Assembly (NCBI GenBank): GCA_017443165.1 | Contig: JAFSOW010000041.1 | Location: forward strand, 1-5,881 | From: Acidaminococcaceae bacterium | Lineage (GTDB): Bacteria; Bacillota; Negativicutes; Acidaminococcales; Acidaminococcaceae | Direction: 5' to 3' | Length of the DNA: 5,881 nucleotides | Part shown: one piece after another, positions 1 through 5,881 of the stretch | Numbering within the stretch: position 1 is the stretch's first letter | How the letters are laid out: every line of letters begins with the position of its first letter | Position numbers and translations under genes: made by a program | Notes under the pieces: model-generated | What the model was told of the DNA's origin: nothing | Database searches by the model: none | Seen by the model: only the letters and a program-made list of their open reading frames with translations

Positions 1-2
1 AT

Positions 3-305
3 ATGGGGGAAGATGGAAGGCGAAATCATGATAACCGTGCGTCACTTCATATAAAGCCGCCTGATGAAAATGACATGTGGCTTCCTTTTGACATCCGGCT
101 GTTGTTCGGGACTTTTGCCGATCGGGTCCGTACCGGCGGCTACGCGCACACAATCTATTTCAACATGTATAAGGCAGACGGGCTTCTGCGACGCAAATAC
201 AGGACGTTTGCCGGGATTGAAGGCTGGGGATGCCTGATCCATGAAATTGTGGAGCAGACGCTGACTTTATATTATATCAGAGAAGAAAGGCGGCCTTCAT
301 CATGA
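3..305 (+). CDS. C-terminal part of an unidentified protein, 5' end probably outside the window
   Basis: The frame is open from the left edge of the window to a TGA at 303-305, so the ATG at position 3 is probably internal: only two bases lie upstream and no ribosome binding site can be judged. The visible 100 residues have no signal peptide or membrane segment. They contain an aromatic-rich stretch (WLPFDIRLLFGTFADR, about residues 26-41) and end with YRTFAGIEGWGCLIHEIVEQ (about residues 66-85) followed by a charged tail. The final Gly-aromatic segment running into a helix with an EI pair faintly recalls the C-terminal end of nitrogenase component 1-like (NifD/NifK-type) proteins, which would suit the NifH-like gene downstream, but I cannot confirm the family. 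Its stop overlaps the start of the next gene by ATGA, so the two are probably translationally coupled. The gene call is fairly sure; the function is unknown. Confidence 0.6.
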   Translation: MGEDGRRNHDNRASLHIKPPDENDMWLPFDIRLLFGTFADRVRTGGYAHTIYFNMYKADGLLRRKYRTFAGIEGWGCLIHEIVEQTLTLYYIREERRPSS

Positions 306-1069
306 AAATCGTGTTGTGCCATCTTACCCTGAGCATGGGGCCATTGGAAGAGAACTTGAAAATTTTGGAACGCGCAGTACAGATTGCGGGTGAAGTGAAA
401 GCAGACTGGGTTATTACACCGGAAACCGCAGTGCAGGGTTATCATTTTTATAAAATTGACCCGGAACAGAAGCTGGACCCACAGCCTGCGGAATATTTAA
501 CTCCGTTGCGGAACCTGGCCAGGAAAAACCGGCAGTATCTGTTTCTGGGGACCGGAGAGTACGACGTAAAAGACAAGTGCAATTACAATACCTGCTTCGT
601 TTTCGGACCGGACGGCGAACTGGTCGGAAAGCACCGCAAAAACCACTCCCACGGATATGGCGGGGAAGGCTGGGTAACGAACACTACCGTTGCAGAACCG
701 GTACAGGTGGGAAACGTAAAAACAGGTATCATGGTCTGCTCCGATGCATGGTATATCGAATGTCCCAAACGGCTGGCGGAACAGGGCGCGCAACTGTTGG
801 TGGACATTGCCGGCTGGCCCATATCCGAAGAATGCGGAGACCCATTGCCTTCTTGGATTAAGTGTTCGGAGGAAACGGGATTGCCTATGGTTCTTTGTAA
901 TCAGACCGGGAAAACGGAATGGCTGGATTTTACAGTTGGGCAGAGTGTGTATATTGAAAACGGACAACTGAAACTGACATACAGTGGCGATGATGCGTTG
1001 CTGCTGTTTGAGTGGGATGAAAAGAAGAAGAGTGTAATTTCAGAAAGGTTTGCAGTGATTCCCTTCTGA
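302..1069 (+). CDS. Carbon-nitrogen hydrolase (nitrilase superfamily), cytoplasmic
   Basis: This 255-residue protein has the expected length and the three catalytic landmarks of the nitrilase/amidase superfamily: Glu41 in the motif TPETAVQGY, Lys113 in GKHRKNH, and the nucleophile Cys146 in GIMVCSDAW. A further Glu122 (GGEGW) lies where many family members carry a second structural or catalytic glutamate. The C-terminal NQTG motif (200-203) is also typical. Enzymes of this fold hydrolyse amides, ureides or nitriles through a thioester intermediate; the substrate here cannot be read from the sequence. There is no signal peptide, so it should act in the cytoplasm. An AGGCGG ribosome binding site at 288-293 lies 8 bases before the ATG, which overlaps the preceding stop. 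By eye, about half of its residues match the secreted hydrolase at 1986-2900, and both end in IPF. Family assignment is firm, substrate unknown. Confidence 0.93.
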   Translation: MKIVLCHLTLSMGPLEENLKILERAVQIAGEVKADWVITPETAVQGYHFYKIDPEQKLDPQPAEYLTPLRNLARKNRQYLFLGTGEYDVKDKCNYNTCFVFGPDGELVGKHRKNHSHGYGGEGWVTNTTVAEPVQVGNVKTGIMVCSDAWYIECPKRLAEQGAQLLVDIAGWPISEECGDPLPSWIKCSEETGLPMVLCNQTGKTEWLDFTVGQSVYIENGQLKLTYSGDDALLLFEWDEKKKSVISERFAVIPF

Positions 1070-1122
1070 AACATAATTCGATATGCCCTGCTAAAATAAG
1101 TAAGTTTTTAATATTAATCATT

Positions 1123-1128
1123 TATGAT
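1123..1128 (+). promoter_or_regulatory. Possible -10 element before the NifH-like gene
   Basis: The 78-base gap upstream of the NifH-like frame is strongly AT-rich and holds TATGAT, one mismatch from the TATAAT consensus, 19 bases before the ATG. It forms part of a short inverted repeat (ATCAT-TT-ATGAT, 1117-1128), and a 10-base palindrome TTAATATTAA lies at 1108-1117. No convincing -35 hexamer stands 16-18 bases upstream, and the transcript leader would be very short. This is the longest gap in the window and the most likely place for an internal promoter or operator, but the evidence is weak. Confidence 0.25.
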
Positions 1129-1132
1129 ACAG

Positions 1133-1138
1133 AAAGGA
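1133..1138 (+). promoter_or_regulatory. Ribosome binding site of the NifH-like gene
   Basis: AAAGGA lies 9 bases before the ATG at 1148; a second purine run, AGGGA (1141-1145), is too close to that ATG to be ideal. This site supports translation starting upstream of the P-loop stop codon, so the TAA at 1190-1192 interrupts a gene that was built to start at 1148. Confidence 0.6.
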
Positions 1139-1147
1139 TCAGGGACT

Positions 1148-1969
1148 ATGCTTAAAATCGCATTTTACGGAAAAGGCGGTATCGGAAAATAAACGACGGC
1201 ATCGAATGTTTCTGCTGCATTAAGTGAAATGGGCGTGAAGGTCTGCCAGATTGGCTGTGATCCGAAAAACGATTCCACCCGCCTGGTACTTGGTAAAATC
1301 TGCAAGGGAACGGTCCTGGACGCAGTACGGAATTCCGACGATGGCAGCGTTACCCTGGAAGAAATCGTACATTATGGTTATAACCATATCAAATGTATCG
1401 AAGCCGGGGGTCCGGAACCCGGTGTCGGCTGTGCCGGCAGAGGCATTATCGTTGCCCTGGAGCGGTTAAACGCGTTACATGCCAATGATGATGACGAACT
1501 GATTTTGTACGATGTATTGGGAGACGTGGTTTGCGGCGGTTTTGCCGTGCCGATCCGGGAAGGATACGCAGATGTGATTTATATTGTTACATCCGGGGAA
1601 ATGATGTCGCTGTACGCGGCGAACAATATTGCCAAAGGGATCAGGCGGTTTGCCCAGCGTGGTAAAGTACGTCTGGGCGGGCTGATCGGTAACAGCCGGA
1701 ATACACCAAAGGAAAAAGAACTGCTGGAGGCTTTTGCAAAGAAGCTGAATACAAAACTGATAGCTTTTATCCCCCGGGATCAGATTGTACAGAAAGCGGA
1801 AATCCAGCGGCAGACTGTAATTCAGTACGCACCGGACTCCAAGCAGGCACAGGTATACCGGGAACTGGCAAAATGTGTGCTTGATAATAAGGAACTGACA
1901 ATTCCCACGACCATGACGTTTGAAGAACTGGAAGCATTTATGGTGGAGATGGGTGTGGAAGAGAATTGA
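1148..1969 (+). pseudogene. nifH: NifH-like nitrogenase iron protein family reductase, interrupted by an in-frame TAA in the P-loop
   Basis: The family comprises homodimeric ATPases with a bridging [4Fe-4S] cluster that pass electrons to a NifDK-type partner. From the ATG at 1148 the frame reads MLKIAFYGKGGIGK, then TAA (1190-1192), then TTASNVSAAL and an uninterrupted remainder to the TGA at 1967-1969. The stop replaces the near-invariant Ser of GKGGIGKSTT. Numbered from 1148, conserved landmarks remain: GCDPKNDSTR (about 36-45), GGPEPGVGCAGRG with cluster ligand Cys95 and Arg98 (the ADP-ribosylation position in classical NifH), YDVLGDVVCGGF with Asp122, Asp126 and cluster ligand Cys129, and SGEMMSLYAANN. 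LGGLIGNSRNT carries Gly where classical NifH has Cys. The full frame is 273 codons, slightly shorter than classical NifH. The first downstream ATG (1229) would give 246 residues without a P-loop and lacks a good ribosome binding site. Either the gene is newly broken or the base is an error. NifH-like is certain; true nitrogenase function is not, since no partner subunits are visible. Confidence 0.9.
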
Positions 1970-1971
1970 AA

Positions 1972-1978
1972 AAGGAAG
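1972..1978 (+). promoter_or_regulatory. Ribosome binding site fixing the start of the secreted hydrolase
   Basis: AAGGAAG lies 7 bases before the ATG at 1986. It favours that start over an in-frame TTG at 1920 inside the NifH-like frame, and the product from 1986 begins with a proper signal peptide. Confidence 0.7.
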
Positions 1979-1985
1979 CATCATC

Positions 1986-2900
1986 ATGAAAGGTTTTGCT
2001 AAAAAGTTTTGTTTCCTGTTGCTTGTTATTTGTCTTACTTTGTGTTCTACAGGGTTAGCTGCAGGAGCCGGAGAAAACACTTCAAATACGGACATTTTCA
2101 AAAAGGGTAATTCTAATAAACCTATACGGATTGCTTTGTGTCATCTGGATGTAGCCCAGGGGCCCCAGGCAGAAAATATTAAAAAAATTGAAAAAGCAAT
2201 TCACATAGCCGGCCGGCATGGCGCCAACTGGATCGTTACACCGGAAACTGCCCTGCAGGGATATTATTTTTTTGTGATTGATCCGAAGCAAAAGGAAAAA
2301 ATAAAACCGCAGCCTTCTGAAGACATCGGGTCTTTAACAGAGGCGTGCAAAAAGTATGGCGCCTACTTTTTTCTGGGCGCAGGGGAATATGATAAACAGG
2401 CAGATTGTTACAGGAATTCCTGTCTGGTTTTCGGGCCAGACGGTAAACTGATGGGGCGGCACAGCAAAATGACTGCCCATGTAGGTTTTGGCGCGGAGGT
2501 GTGGTCAACGAATGATTACAAATTGAATCCTGTTACCTGCAGTGACGTGACAACAGGGATCCTGGTATGCTCTGATATCTGGTTCCCGAGTTATCCTGTT
2601 ATTCTGGCGGACAAAGGGGCGAAGATTATTATCGACATCGCTGCCTGGCCCCCTGCAGAAGAAACTGGAAATCCGCTGCCAAGCTGGGAGCTGGCATCAA
2701 GGAGGGCAAACCTTCCTGTGGTGATCTGCAACCAGACAGGCAAGCCCAGGTGGATGGACATGACACCGGGCCAGAGCGCAGTGGTTGAAAATGGAAAGGC
2801 CAGGCTCTTACACAGTGGCGAAGAGGCGGTGCTGTTGTTTGACTGGGATCCGGAGACCGGGAAGGTAGTGTCTGACAAGTTTGAGAGTATCCCATTTTAG
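1986..2900 (+). CDS. Secreted carbon-nitrogen hydrolase (nitrilase superfamily), paralogue of the hydrolase at 302-1069
   Basis: This protein has 304 residues. Residues 1-27 form a signal peptide: a basic start (MKGFAKK), a hydrophobic core and a likely signal peptidase I site near LAAGAG. Cys20 lies in LTLC, which is a poor lipobox, so a lipoprotein is unlikely. After a short polar linker, the hydrolase domain runs from about residue 46 to the end. It keeps the catalytic set Glu87 (TPETALQGY), Lys161 (RHSKMTAH) and Cys195 (GILVCSDIW), with Glu171 in GAEVW and the NQTG motif at 249-252. It aligns almost without gaps to the cytoplasmic paralogue, with about half the residues identical by eye, so the pair looks like a duplication followed by a change of compartment. 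It should act on an amide or nitrile outside the cytoplasmic membrane; the substrate is unknown. It starts 16 bases after the NifH-like stop and is probably in the same transcript. Confidence 0.92.
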   Translation: MKGFAKKFCFLLLVICLTLCSTGLAAGAGENTSNTDIFKKGNSNKPIRIALCHLDVAQGPQAENIKKIEKAIHIAGRHGANWIVTPETALQGYYFFVIDPKQKEKIKPQPSEDIGSLTEACKKYGAYFFLGAGEYDKQADCYRNSCLVFGPDGKLMGRHSKMTAHVGFGAEVWSTNDYKLNPVTCSDVTTGILVCSDIWFPSYPVILADKGAKIIIDIAAWPPAEETGNPLPSWELASRRANLPVVICNQTGKPRWMDMTPGQSAVVENGKARLLHSGEEAVLLFDWDPETGKVVSDKFESIPF

Positions 2901-2905
2901 CGTGT

Positions 2906-2910
2906 GGAGG
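2906..2910 (+). promoter_or_regulatory. Ribosome binding site fixing the start of the small secreted protein
   Basis: GGAGG lies 6 bases before the ATG at 2917. It rules out the in-frame TTG at 2881, which overlaps the preceding gene and would put twelve polar residues before the signal peptide. Confidence 0.8.
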
Positions 2911-2916
2911 AAAACA

Positions 2917-3513
2917 ATGAAGAAGATAGCGTTGTTGTTATTGGTCAGCTTATTGCTGGCACTGCAAACTTCCGTTCTGGCTGCCCGCAGGCAGGCGGAA
3001 GATGTGCCGGAGAACCCCATGGACTGGAGCATCAGCACTAAACCGCCCATGAGCGAAAAAGAAAAAGAAGCGGCCCGCTGGTCGCTGATTCTGGAAAATG
3101 ATTTAGGCTTATATGCTTACGACATGAATACCCTGGGTTATATTTCCGATAAAAACGGCAGCGTGGATACCAATCGGGTGGGTGCTGCTGTCAAGACTCT
3201 GTTTACTGATAAAATGATGTTGCAGAAACTGCAGGAACAATATGCGTCTAAACTGAAAGGCAAGGAAAAAGTGCAGTACTGCCTGTTGGATATGCAGTAC
3301 AATATGGCGGAGAAGACCTATACGGTGACGGAGATGCGGGTGTTCACCAATAAGAACCGCATCATTGAAACCAAAAAAAATAAAACCGGTTTTCTGCCGG
3401 TTCCGGAAAAATCCTTTGCTGAAGCTATGTATGAGATTTGCCAGCAGTTTGTGACAGAAACAACCGGACCGGAAGCAGGCGGGCAGAAAGCCTCGCTGTT
3501 AAGTAAAAAGTAA
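2917..3513 (+). CDS. Small secreted protein, Adhesin_E-like
   Basis: This protein has 198 residues. MKKIALLLLVSLLLALQTSV starts a clear signal peptide, with likely cleavage near VLAA (20-23). The mature part has a Pro-rich linker (about 31-44), then RWSLILENDLGLYAYDMNTL (54-73). That pattern, Trp followed by a short strand and an aromatic-Asp motif, resembles surface-adhesin E (Adhesin_E) domains, which are common small periplasmic or surface proteins in diderm bacteria. A VGAAVKTLF segment follows at 88-96. Two cysteines in the mature part (122 and 175) could form a disulfide. The C-terminal tail is Gly/Lys/Ser-rich. No catalytic motif is visible, so a binding or structural role outside the membrane is more likely than an enzyme. 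It follows the secreted hydrolase by 16 bases, so the two are probably made together and share a compartment. The family link is by motif only and is tentative. Confidence 0.85.
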   Translation: MKKIALLLLVSLLLALQTSVLAARRQAEDVPENPMDWSISTKPPMSEKEKEAARWSLILENDLGLYAYDMNTLGYISDKNGSVDTNRVGAAVKTLFTDKMMLQKLQEQYASKLKGKEKVQYCLLDMQYNMAEKTYTVTEMRVFTNKNRIIETKKNKTGFLPVPEKSFAEAMYEICQQFVTETTGPEAGGQKASLLSKK

Positions 3514-3516
3514 ATA

Positions 3517-3544
3517 CTGCAGTTTGCATAGCAAGGTACTGCAG
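3517..3544 (+). other. Imperfect hairpin in the intergenic gap
   Basis: CTGCAGT (3517-3523) can pair with ACTGCAG (3538-3544), and inside it TTGC (3524-3527) pairs with GCAA (3531-3534) around an ATA loop, leaving GGT unpaired on the 3' side. The same arms also form a direct repeat of TACTGCAG (3515-3522 and 3537-3544). No run of T follows, so it is not a typical intrinsic terminator. An RNA stability or processing element between the secreted gene and the transporter ATPase is possible. Confidence 0.4.
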
Positions 3545-3568
3545 GATTATGAAAGACAGGGGTAAAAA

Positions 3569-4411
3569 ATGCAGCAGGAGACGGTAATTCAAATTCAGAA
3601 TCTGACTATCGGTTATGAGAATAAGATTATCATCAGCGGTATCAATGCTGACATTAATGCCGGTGAACTGGTTGGCATCATCGGACGTAACGGGGCGGGT
3701 AAGAGTACGCTTCTGAAAACGATCCGGGGGCTGCTTCCTGCAAAGTCAGGAAAAGTTTTGTATTTTGACCGGCCTTTGGACTCTTACAGAGAAAAAGAGC
3801 TGGCCCGGCGTGTGGCTTACCTTCAGCAGAATGTGGAAACCGGTTTTGGTTACACGGGACTGGATATTGTGTTGACCGGACGCTACCCTTATATGAAGTG
3901 GTGGGAAAGCGAAACGGATGAGGATAAATCCCTGGCCCGGGACTGTATGTCTTATACAGGCACACTGGACCTGGCGGAACGTCCGGTGACAGAAGTTTCC
4001 GGTGGTCAGAAGCAGCGTATTCTGCTGGCGAAGGTACTGGCCCAGCAGACGCCGGTACTGTTTCTGGATGAACCGACGACCGGGCTGGACATGGTATACC
4101 GGGAAGAAATATTCAGGTTTGCCAGGGAACTGGCCAATATGGGGAAGACTATTTTGATGGTAGTCCATGAGCTGGATCTGGCTGCGGCTTATTGCAGCCG
4201 TATCTTTCTGCTGGGTGAAGGAAAACTGCTGGCCGACGGACGTCCTGATGAAGTTTTTACAGAAGAACTGCTGAGCCGTGCCTATGAAGCGGACATCACA
4301 GTAGGAAAGAATCCGAAAAGCGGCCGGCTGGAGATAACGACGCGGGAAAATCCTCAGGCAAAAGAAAAGGAAAAAGATTTATTGAAAAAAATCTGTGTGC
4401 AGGGGAGCTGA
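3569..4411 (+). CDS. ABC transporter ATP-binding protein, FecE/BtuD/HmuV-type importer ATPase
   Basis: This 280-residue ATPase has a complete set of motifs: Walker A GRNGAGKST (39-47), Q-loop YLQQ (84-87), ABC signature VSGGQ (143-147), Walker B VLFLDEP (163-169) and the switch His200. The segment VLTGRYPY (101-108) after the Q-loop and the ending FTEELLSRAYEADITV are typical of ATPases that power uptake of iron-siderophore, heme or cobalamin-like compounds with FecCD-type permeases. The charged C-terminal tail after about residue 255 is an extension. No permease or solute-binding protein gene is in the window, so its partners must be upstream or elsewhere. AGGGG (3558-3562) sits 6 bases before the ATG. 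Which ligand is imported cannot be decided. Confidence 0.93.
   Translation: MQQETVIQIQNLTIGYENKIIISGINADINAGELVGIIGRNGAGKSTLLKTIRGLLPAKSGKVLYFDRPLDSYREKELARRVAYLQQNVETGFGYTGLDIVLTGRYPYMKWWESETDEDKSLARDCMSYTGTLDLAERPVTEVSGGQKQRILLAKVLAQQTPVLFLDEPTTGLDMVYREEIFRFARELANMGKTILMVVHELDLAAAYCSRIFLLGEGKLLADGRPDEVFTEELLSRAYEADITVGKNPKSGRLEITTRENPQAKEKEKDLLKKICVQGS
4401..4407 (+). promoter_or_regulatory. Ribosome binding site for the GTG start of the ABC exporter
   Basis: AGGGGAG, inside the last codons of the ATPase gene, lies 9 bases before the GTG at 4417. With only 5 bases between the two genes, translation is probably coupled. Confidence 0.55.
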
Positions 4412-4416
4412 CCTTT

Positions 4417-5881
4417 GTGCTAAAAACATTATTTTCATATTATAAACCTTACCGGCGAACTGTTTGTGTGTTGCTGTTTCTTTCGCTTTTTTCCGCAGCG
4501 CTGGATCTGGTTTTCCCGATGCTGGTACGTCACATTATGGAGGTGGAGCTGCCGGGTAAAAATATTGACAATATTTTACGGATGATCGGTATTCTCTTCG
4601 CGTTGTACTGTGTCAGCTTTGTTTTATCTTATATTGGGCAGTATAAGGGAACCCTGATTTCTGTTCACATGGAAAATGATATGCGGCAGGATCTTTTCCG
4701 CCACCTGGAAAAGATGTCTTTCCGATTTTTTGACAATAATAAAACCGGGCAGCTGCTGTCACGCATCACCACCGATTTGACGGAGATCGGGGAACTGACG
4801 TTCAATGGGCCTAATGACGTTCTCATCTGTTCTATAACCATGTTGGGCACCATCGCCATCCTTATCTGGATGAATCCGGTGCTGGCATCATTTATTGTGT
4901 TGCTGCTTGTTGCCAAAACTGTACACACGGTCTATATTAACCGCAAAATGAAACAGCGTTTCCGGGCGAACCGCGTGTTATACGGTGATGTGTCTGCGCA
5001 GGCAGCGGAAGATTTGAGCGGAATCCGGCTGGTTAAGGCTTTTGCCTTAGAAGAGCAGGAGGCGAGCCGGTTTGCTGAGAAGTGTGATACGTATATTGCC
5101 GGCCGGCGCAAATCAACGCGCCTGGTAGCCTATTTTTCCGGCAGTGTGGCTTTTTTCAGCAACCTGATCAATGTAGTGATGCTGGGTGTAGGCGGCTGGA
5201 TGATTGCCACAGACAGGCTGAAACTCAGTGATTTTGTAGCGTTTTTGTTATACGTGAACCTCTTTATGAAACCACTGCTCCGCCTTACGGTGTTTGCAGA
5301 AATGTACCAGCGGGGCATGGCCGGGTTCTCCCGGTTTTATGAGATTATGCAGATTGAACCGGAGATTCAGGACGCTCCGGACGCTGTTGAATGTAAGGGC
5401 GTGAAAGGCGAGATTGTTTTTGATAATGTCAGTTTCAGCTACGGAAACGGAGTGGTTATTCGGAATCTGAACCTGACGGTAAAGCCCGGGGAAAAAATAG
5501 CATTTGTGGGGGAAACCGGAGCCGGAAAAACCACCATTGCCAGCCTGTTGCTACGCTTTTATGAACCTCAGCAGGGAAAGATTTTGCTGGACGGCAGAGA
5601 TATACGGGAATACACGCAGCAGTCCCTGCGCCGGTCTATCGGTCTGGTACAGCAGGATGTCTTTCTGTTTTCCGATTCTGTAAACTATAACATTTCCTAC
5701 GGAAACATTTCTGCCAGCCAGGAAGACATAAAAAAAGCAGCCCGTCTGGCTGCTGCGGAAGAGTTTATTGAAAAACTGCCGGAAAAGTATGAAACATGTA
5801 TCGGGGAACGGGGGGTAAAACTCTCCGGCGGGCAGAAACAGCGTATTGCCATTGCCAGGGTGTTTCTTGAAAACCCGCCTG
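4417..5881 (+). CDS. ABC exporter half-transporter (membrane domain fused to ATPase), 3' end cut off by the window
   Basis: A GTG start opens a frame that stays open for 488 codons to the window edge. The N-terminal half is an exporter-type membrane domain: hydrophobic segments at about residues 15-37 and 53-75, paired segments between about 135 and 175, and two more in the 235-295 region. The coupling-helix region includes FFDNNKTGQLLSRITTDL, characteristic of MsbA/LmrA-like proteins. The ATPase domain begins near residue 330, with Walker A GETGAGKTT (365-373), Q-loop VQQD (411-414) and signature LSGGQKQR (469-476). The frame ends at about ARVFLENPP, just before the expected Walker B, so roughly 90-100 residues are missing for a usual length near 580. 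It exports an unknown compound across the cytoplasmic membrane as a homodimer, or as a heterodimer if a second half-transporter follows. Translation is probably coupled to the importer-type ATPase upstream. Confidence 0.92.
   Translation, partial: MLKTLFSYYKPYRRTVCVLLFLSLFSAALDLVFPMLVRHIMEVELPGKNIDNILRMIGILFALYCVSFVLSYIGQYKGTLISVHMENDMRQDLFRHLEKMSFRFFDNNKTGQLLSRITTDLTEIGELTFNGPNDVLICSITMLGTIAILIWMNPVLASFIVLLLVAKTVHTVYINRKMKQRFRANRVLYGDVSAQAAEDLSGIRLVKAFALEEQEASRFAEKCDTYIAGRRKSTRLVAYFSGSVAFFSNLINVVMLGVGGWMIATDRLKLSDFVAFLLYVNLFMKPLLRLTVFAEMYQRGMAGFSRFYEIMQIEPEIQDAPDAVECKGVKGEIVFDNVSFSYGNGVVIRNLNLTVKPGEKIAFVGETGAGKTTIASLLLRFYEPQQGKILLDGRDIREYTQQSLRRSIGLVQQDVFLFSDSVNYNISYGNISASQEDIKKAARLAAAEEFIEKLPEKYETCIGERGVKLSGGQKQRIAIARVFLENPP

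Follow-up and report, generated by a model that had tools for sequence, protein, structure and literature searches.

The stretch analysed here (5,881 nucleotides; hereafter the window) is the whole of contig C244 of G000, a draft of 255 contigs and 1.49 Mb that is estimated to be 73% complete with 3.2% contamination. It carries part of a nitrogenase-like gene cluster, two carbon-nitrogen hydrolase genes and two ABC transporter genes (Table 1). As stated in the first-pass annotation, an internal stop is confined to the NifH-like gene, with the first gene (the NifK-like tail) and the last one (the ABC exporter) leaving the contig. The NifK-like tail matches the end of a gene of the nearest relative, G005 (L113:10452-11759; tblastn, 90% identity over 99 codons), which itself matches Oxidored_nitro (PF00148) at 162.9 bits. 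The NifH-like gene is flanked by the two carbon-nitrogen hydrolase genes (302-1069 and 1986-2900), each of which also matches the G005 counterpart of the other one at ~47-51% identity. For the conserved protein at 2917..3513, a search of the Pfam and NCBIfam profiles at E 0.001 gave no match, and the corrinoid, heme and Fe-dicitrate ABC ATPase NCBIfam matches of the gene at 3569..4411 all fall below cut-off. Overall, the window (1-5881) shares 87.3% nucleotide identity with G005, compared with 91.2% for all aligned sampled contigs (range 68.6%-99.6%), a spread that possibly reflects a mixed bin or uneven exchange. No relative was found among the viral contigs searched, and the 264 matching plasmid records are all below 60% identity.

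Table 1. Genes and sequence features of the window, with the matches on which their assignment rests.
Feature	Position	Strand	Remarks
NifK-like (nitrogenase component 1) gene, 3' end	3..305	+	Cut by contig start
Carbon-nitrogen hydrolase (nitrilase superfamily)	302..1069	+	PF00795, 80.9 bits; 94% identity, same place in G005
NifH-like reductase gene with a stop at codon 15	1148..1969	+	PF00142, 366.8 bits, 1 TAA inside; orthologues intact in relatives
P-loop serine codon replaced by in-frame TAA	1190..1192	+	Serine TCN in 26/26 readable relative loci
First in-frame restart past the stop	1229..1969	+	246 residues, without P-loop
Second carbon-nitrogen hydrolase	1986..2900	+	PF00795, 79 bits; 82% identity in G005; N-terminal signal-like stretch (by eye)
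Conserved protein, function unassigned by profiles	2917..3513	+	91% identity over 181 codons in G005
ABC transporter ATPase, corrinoid/heme/iron-chelate type	3569..4411	+	PF00005; top NCBIfam hits: corrinoid, heme and Fe-dicitrate ABC ATPases
ABC exporter, membrane and ATPase domains	4417..5881	+	PF00664 and PF00005; cut by contig end

The TAA reported inside the NifH-like gene, at a site that the interval given there (1184-1200) does include, was found to be codon 15 (1190-1192) of a frame that runs from ATG 1148 to TGA 1967-1969, and it lies 1190 bases inside the contig. Fourteen sense codons, MLKIAFYGKGGIGK, precede the stop, after which the same frame reads TTASN... (TTASNVSAALSEMGVKVCQIGCDPKND); between the TAA and the TGA we counted the same 258 open codons as the first-pass annotation, with no frameshift. 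The Pfam NifH profile (PF00142, Fer4_NifH/FrxC superfamily) crosses the stop, aligning over positions 2-269 of 271 at 366.8 bits (cut-off 25) with a single TAA inside the alignment. Since the stretch 1148-1969 holds one stop in this frame, against 13 and 14 in the other two forward frames, the alignment through the stop is not a product of chance. The conserved motifs said to be kept are indeed all present: GVGCAGRG, DVVCGGF, GCDPKND and YDVLGDVV, which serve in this family as cluster and switch motifs, the two cysteines as cluster ligands. What is incomplete is the P-loop GKGGIGKS, the serine codon of which is replaced by TAA. In the NifH family, the serine that follows the P-loop lysine helps to hold the Mg of MgATP; a literature search on Fe protein variants at Ser16 gave no usable paper. 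ATG 1229 is, as had been proposed, the first in-frame start past the stop, and its 246-residue product, from which the P-loop is absent, reaches 345.4 bits with the NCBIfam nifH model (cut-off 394.35); by eye, no strong Shine-Dalgarno-like run lies just upstream of this ATG. At E 0.001, the G000 assembly contains no NifH-family match other than the window gene, although, with the draft 73% complete, a further NifH-like gene may have escaped it.

The open part of the NifH-like gene was matched in 32 of the 41 genomes searched, G000 included, and 29 relative loci, which are the best matches rather than every match, were fetched for the codon comparison suggested in the first-pass annotation. Three of these (L015, L030 and L032) stop short of codon 15 and were left out; in all 26 readable loci the codon is a serine TCN. 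Likewise, GKGGIGKS is present in each of the 14 database proteins fetched from the 120 listed. The codon is TCC in G005 (96% identical) and TCA in G010 (94%) and G012 (93%), two genomes of the genus to which G000 belongs, such that TAA differs by one base from the latter and by two from the former. An origin by the one-base change from TCA to TAA is therefore in keeping with two relatives, but the nearest one carries TCC, and TCA as the codon of the immediate ancestor is something that we infer.

By family, the gene is a relative of NifH (TIGR01287; PDB 1fp6 and others): its intact relative P0001 matches the NifH chains over residues 3-271 of 274 at 326 bits, and the window gene keeps GCDPK and both cysteine motifs, differing in the P-loop serine lost to TAA. 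The TIGR01287 cut-off (394.35) is missed by the open part (362.4) as well as by intact P0001 and the G005 gene (392.0 in both), and the two neighbouring genes in G005 reach 39-86 bits with the models for BchB, nifE and nifD, whose cut-offs are 490-654. The window gene belongs to a nitrogenase-like (NifD/NifK-like) cluster and not to a demonstrated nitrogenase. CfbC, the reductase of Ni-sirohydrochlorin a,c-diamide cyclase (NF033200), is of the same reductase type, and the intact relatives match it at 373.9 and 374.9 bits; these scores, like that of the open part (343.3), are below the cut-off of 402, and the NifD/NifK-like neighbours match a CfbD-type model at just 26-39 bits. The same type is also represented by BchL/ChlL of the dark protochlorophyllide reductase (TIGR01281; PDB 2ynm). 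The best NCBIfam match of the NifK-like neighbour is BchB (85.7 bits), and the intact relatives reach 216-218 bits with the BchL/ChlL model, against a cut-off of 345. The nifH-like genes of gut and other anaerobes that are unlinked to nitrogen fixation have been termed 'pseudo-nifH' (PMC8597730); the likeness is that of a nifH-like gene in an anaerobe, and, in the portion of that article consulted, 'pseudo' refers to annotation rather than to a broken gene.

The gene order of the first 2.9 kb of the window (NifK-like, carbon-nitrogen hydrolase, NifH-like, carbon-nitrogen hydrolase) recurs in G005, where the counterparts of the last three window genes are located on the same contig at a different place. 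Upstream in G005 (L113, corresponding to G005:C27:388001-408000) are a NifD-like gene and genes for two BtuF/FecB-type binding proteins, a BtuB-like TonB receptor and a ChlI/ChlD-like chelatase ATPase, the NCBIfam matches of all of which are below the curated cut-offs; in this setting, a tetrapyrrole or corrinoid is perhaps taken up and reduced. Matches to the NifD/NifK family occur in all 14 genomes of the genus, 1 to 10 in each, where pieces of one gene may be counted separately. An intact full-length NifH-like gene is present, as one copy each, in 10 of the 14; the copy of G006 is cut by a contig end, that of G000 is interrupted, and G004 (92% complete) and G011 (96%) have NifD/NifK-like pairs together with weak NifH-family matches (28-54 bits), which are taken as MinD/ParA-type. 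Several genomes of the genus contain more than one NifD/NifK-like pair (three in G005) and at most one intact NifH-like gene, and this ratio of pairs to NifH-like genes suggests that one reductase may serve several pairs. Apparent lesions were also seen elsewhere. G013 has an apparently broken extra NifH-like copy in two pieces (G013:C28:30201-30981), stops lie within two NifD/K-like matches of G006 (C249 and C171, the latter of which may be a gene boundary), and a NifH-like match of G031, from the same class, contains an in-frame stop (C49:44494-45201). In G010, the lone NifH-like gene adjoins resolvase- and integrase-like frames (L114:3328-9497; by eye), and the NifD/NifK-like pair of this genome is on a different contig.

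Compared with G005, the codons past the stop show a dN of 0.018 and a dS of 0.437 (dN/dS 0.041), next to dN/dS values of 0.043-0.164 for the other window genes. Changes in the NifH-like gene were polarised by means of G010 and G012. This lineage received 24 synonymous and 5 non-synonymous changes and 1 nonsense change, the sister lineage of G005 received 31, 5 and 0, and each has four amino acid changes. On uncorrected counts, a branch free of selection along its full length should have gathered ~77 non-synonymous changes, as opposed to the 5 observed, and the relaxed part of the branch is bounded at roughly 7-14%, indicating that the stop is either very recent or not real. The initial impression that decay has not progressed thus holds for the downstream frame, and the same two observations, the dN/dS of 0.041 and a non-synonymous count equal to that of the sister with an intact gene, contradict an old pseudogene in neutral decay. 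This reading has the existence of the stop codon in its favour and the 258 open codons without frameshift against it, and we consider it extremely improbable. Bacterial nonsense pseudogenes combine a single in-frame stop with orthologues that are intact in relatives. Both the disabling change and the intact orthologues were found here, and the gene is alike in its single stop, but differs in being so far without any other lesion. Indeed, neither relaxed selection nor further lesions were detected in the NifH-like gene; for a very recent event, this is what one would expect.

The purifying selection that persists on the frame could also suit translation of the TAA into an amino acid, whether the codon is reassigned, read by a suppressor tRNA or subject to programmed readthrough; reassignment and readthrough were among the options listed in the first-pass annotation. 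However, TAA is the terminator of 109 of the 189 sampled frames of >= 150 codons. To this we can add a comparison of 47 loci of G000 (264 kb; 42 contigs, including the window, and five loci from the selB search) with mechanically derived ORFs of G005, G010 and G012, which yielded 80 comparable gene places, together 25,324 codons and spread over 19 loci, some of the 80 perhaps not being genes. Stops appeared in five places, namely in the NifH-like gene of the window and in four others. An alignment at L133 was rejected as an internal stop as it crosses a terminator-like hairpin (sequence read), one at L144 sits before the likely gene start, a second at L144 is N-terminal and one at L175 is a gapped 62% match (the last two judged from the alignment summary only); a suspected frameshift at L182 is in an antisense frame that is probably non-coding. 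The search for in-frame stops in other conserved genes, as had been advised, hence produced a convincing case in 0 of the 79 other places. A codon-score scan for internal stops printed no candidate, missed the stop of the window as well and is uninformative. Three tRNAs, all ordinary and none a suppressor, were found in 42 of the 255 contigs, which is weak evidence because most tRNA genes lie elsewhere. Every known bacterial stop reassignment involves UGA, according to the part of the source consulted (PMC8629427). We regard decoding of the TAA as hardly credible; the stop in the NifH-like gene most likely retains its ordinary meaning.

Another stop is present in the same draft, on contig C227 (L150), where a NifD-like gene is cut off after its first part by the contig end and has an in-frame TGA at 3736-3738, 58 bases from that end. 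This fragment is outside the 80 compared places because its G005 counterpart is absent from the reference set. At the position of the TGA, the three closest relatives (G012, 95%; G010, 91%; G005, 89%) have a cysteine, as do nearly all matches, the distant NifD-type match L028 being without it, and the step from cysteine to TGA is a single-base change. Selenocysteine is not supported at this site, because the selB model (best 191.1 bits versus 242.25) and the tRNA-Sec model (best 45.9 versus 47, a near miss) remain below cut-off in all 14 genomes of the genus, where the controls of these searches exceeded cut-off in 2 and 5 genomes. Deletion of a nifH beside this NifD-like gene was likewise dismissed, given that G012:C28, G010:C3 and G005:C18 are also without an adjoining NifH-family match. 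That separate parts of one pathway each carry a stop speaks for a real loss, an argument that is weakened by the proximity of the TGA to the contig end. Assemblies are least reliable at contig ends.

Taken together, the TAA at 1190-1192 is probably a very recent nonsense mutation, strain-level polymorphism included. Among the causes put forward in the first-pass annotation, such a mutation, fixed or strain-level, is the best supported and ranks first, followed by an error of the consensus or assembly, in which case the living cell would have an intact serine codon. We hold such an error to be unlikely, yet with a real chance of being correct: the draft is fragmented, with the contig number, completeness and contamination given above, TAA is one base away from the TCA of two relatives, the second stop, in a related gene, is close to a contig end, and the lack of visible relaxation fits an error as well as it fits a recent mutation. 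Arguing against it are the position of the TAA well within its contig and the absence of a convincing internal stop from the 79 other gene places. Moreover, over 79,864 aligned bases, differences of the C-to-A type between G000 and G005 (706) are not in excess of the reverse (757), so that general oxidative damage is not indicated and its signature is not seen. Within the favoured reading of a recent mutation, and sharing part of its probability, it is possible, if short of probable, that both stop and intact alleles exist in the population and that the bin happened to sample the stop. Close homologues with an intact gene are plentiful, the top cluster among the database matches listed (94% identical) representing 274 member sequences, and the bound on the relaxed part of the branch is compatible with such a polymorphism. 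The interrupted NifH-like gene is most likely a recent, ordinary loss-of-function case.

By homology, the intact protein would be an ATP-driven [4Fe-4S] reductase delivering electrons to NifD/NifK-like partners. The reductase is likely disabled, because a 14-residue peptide is the sole product up to the stop. As the P-loop half of the protein is missing, normal MgATP binding is not expected of this peptide or of the 246-residue restart product, and for this reason the nitrogenase-like module as a whole, deprived of its ATP-driven electron donor, would not work in the lineage or, at least, in the strain sampled. Its sequence would still be kept by the gene because there has been too little time for more damage. 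It is possible, though less likely than not, that the module is being switched off, separate single-base stops having hit both the one reductase that the pairs would share and a catalytic partner. A recent null mutation is the most economical explanation for so conspicuous an in-frame stop within a conserved ATP-binding loop, and the case cautions against taking such stops as recoding. A useful by-product is the delineation of a NifD/NifK-like family that has multiple pairs in several genomes of the genus alongside no more than one intact NifH-like reductase and that, in G005, is found beside genes for corrinoid/heme-type uptake and chelatase-like genes. If the proposed loss is true, one mutation in the shared reductase would silence all NifD/NifK-like pairs together.
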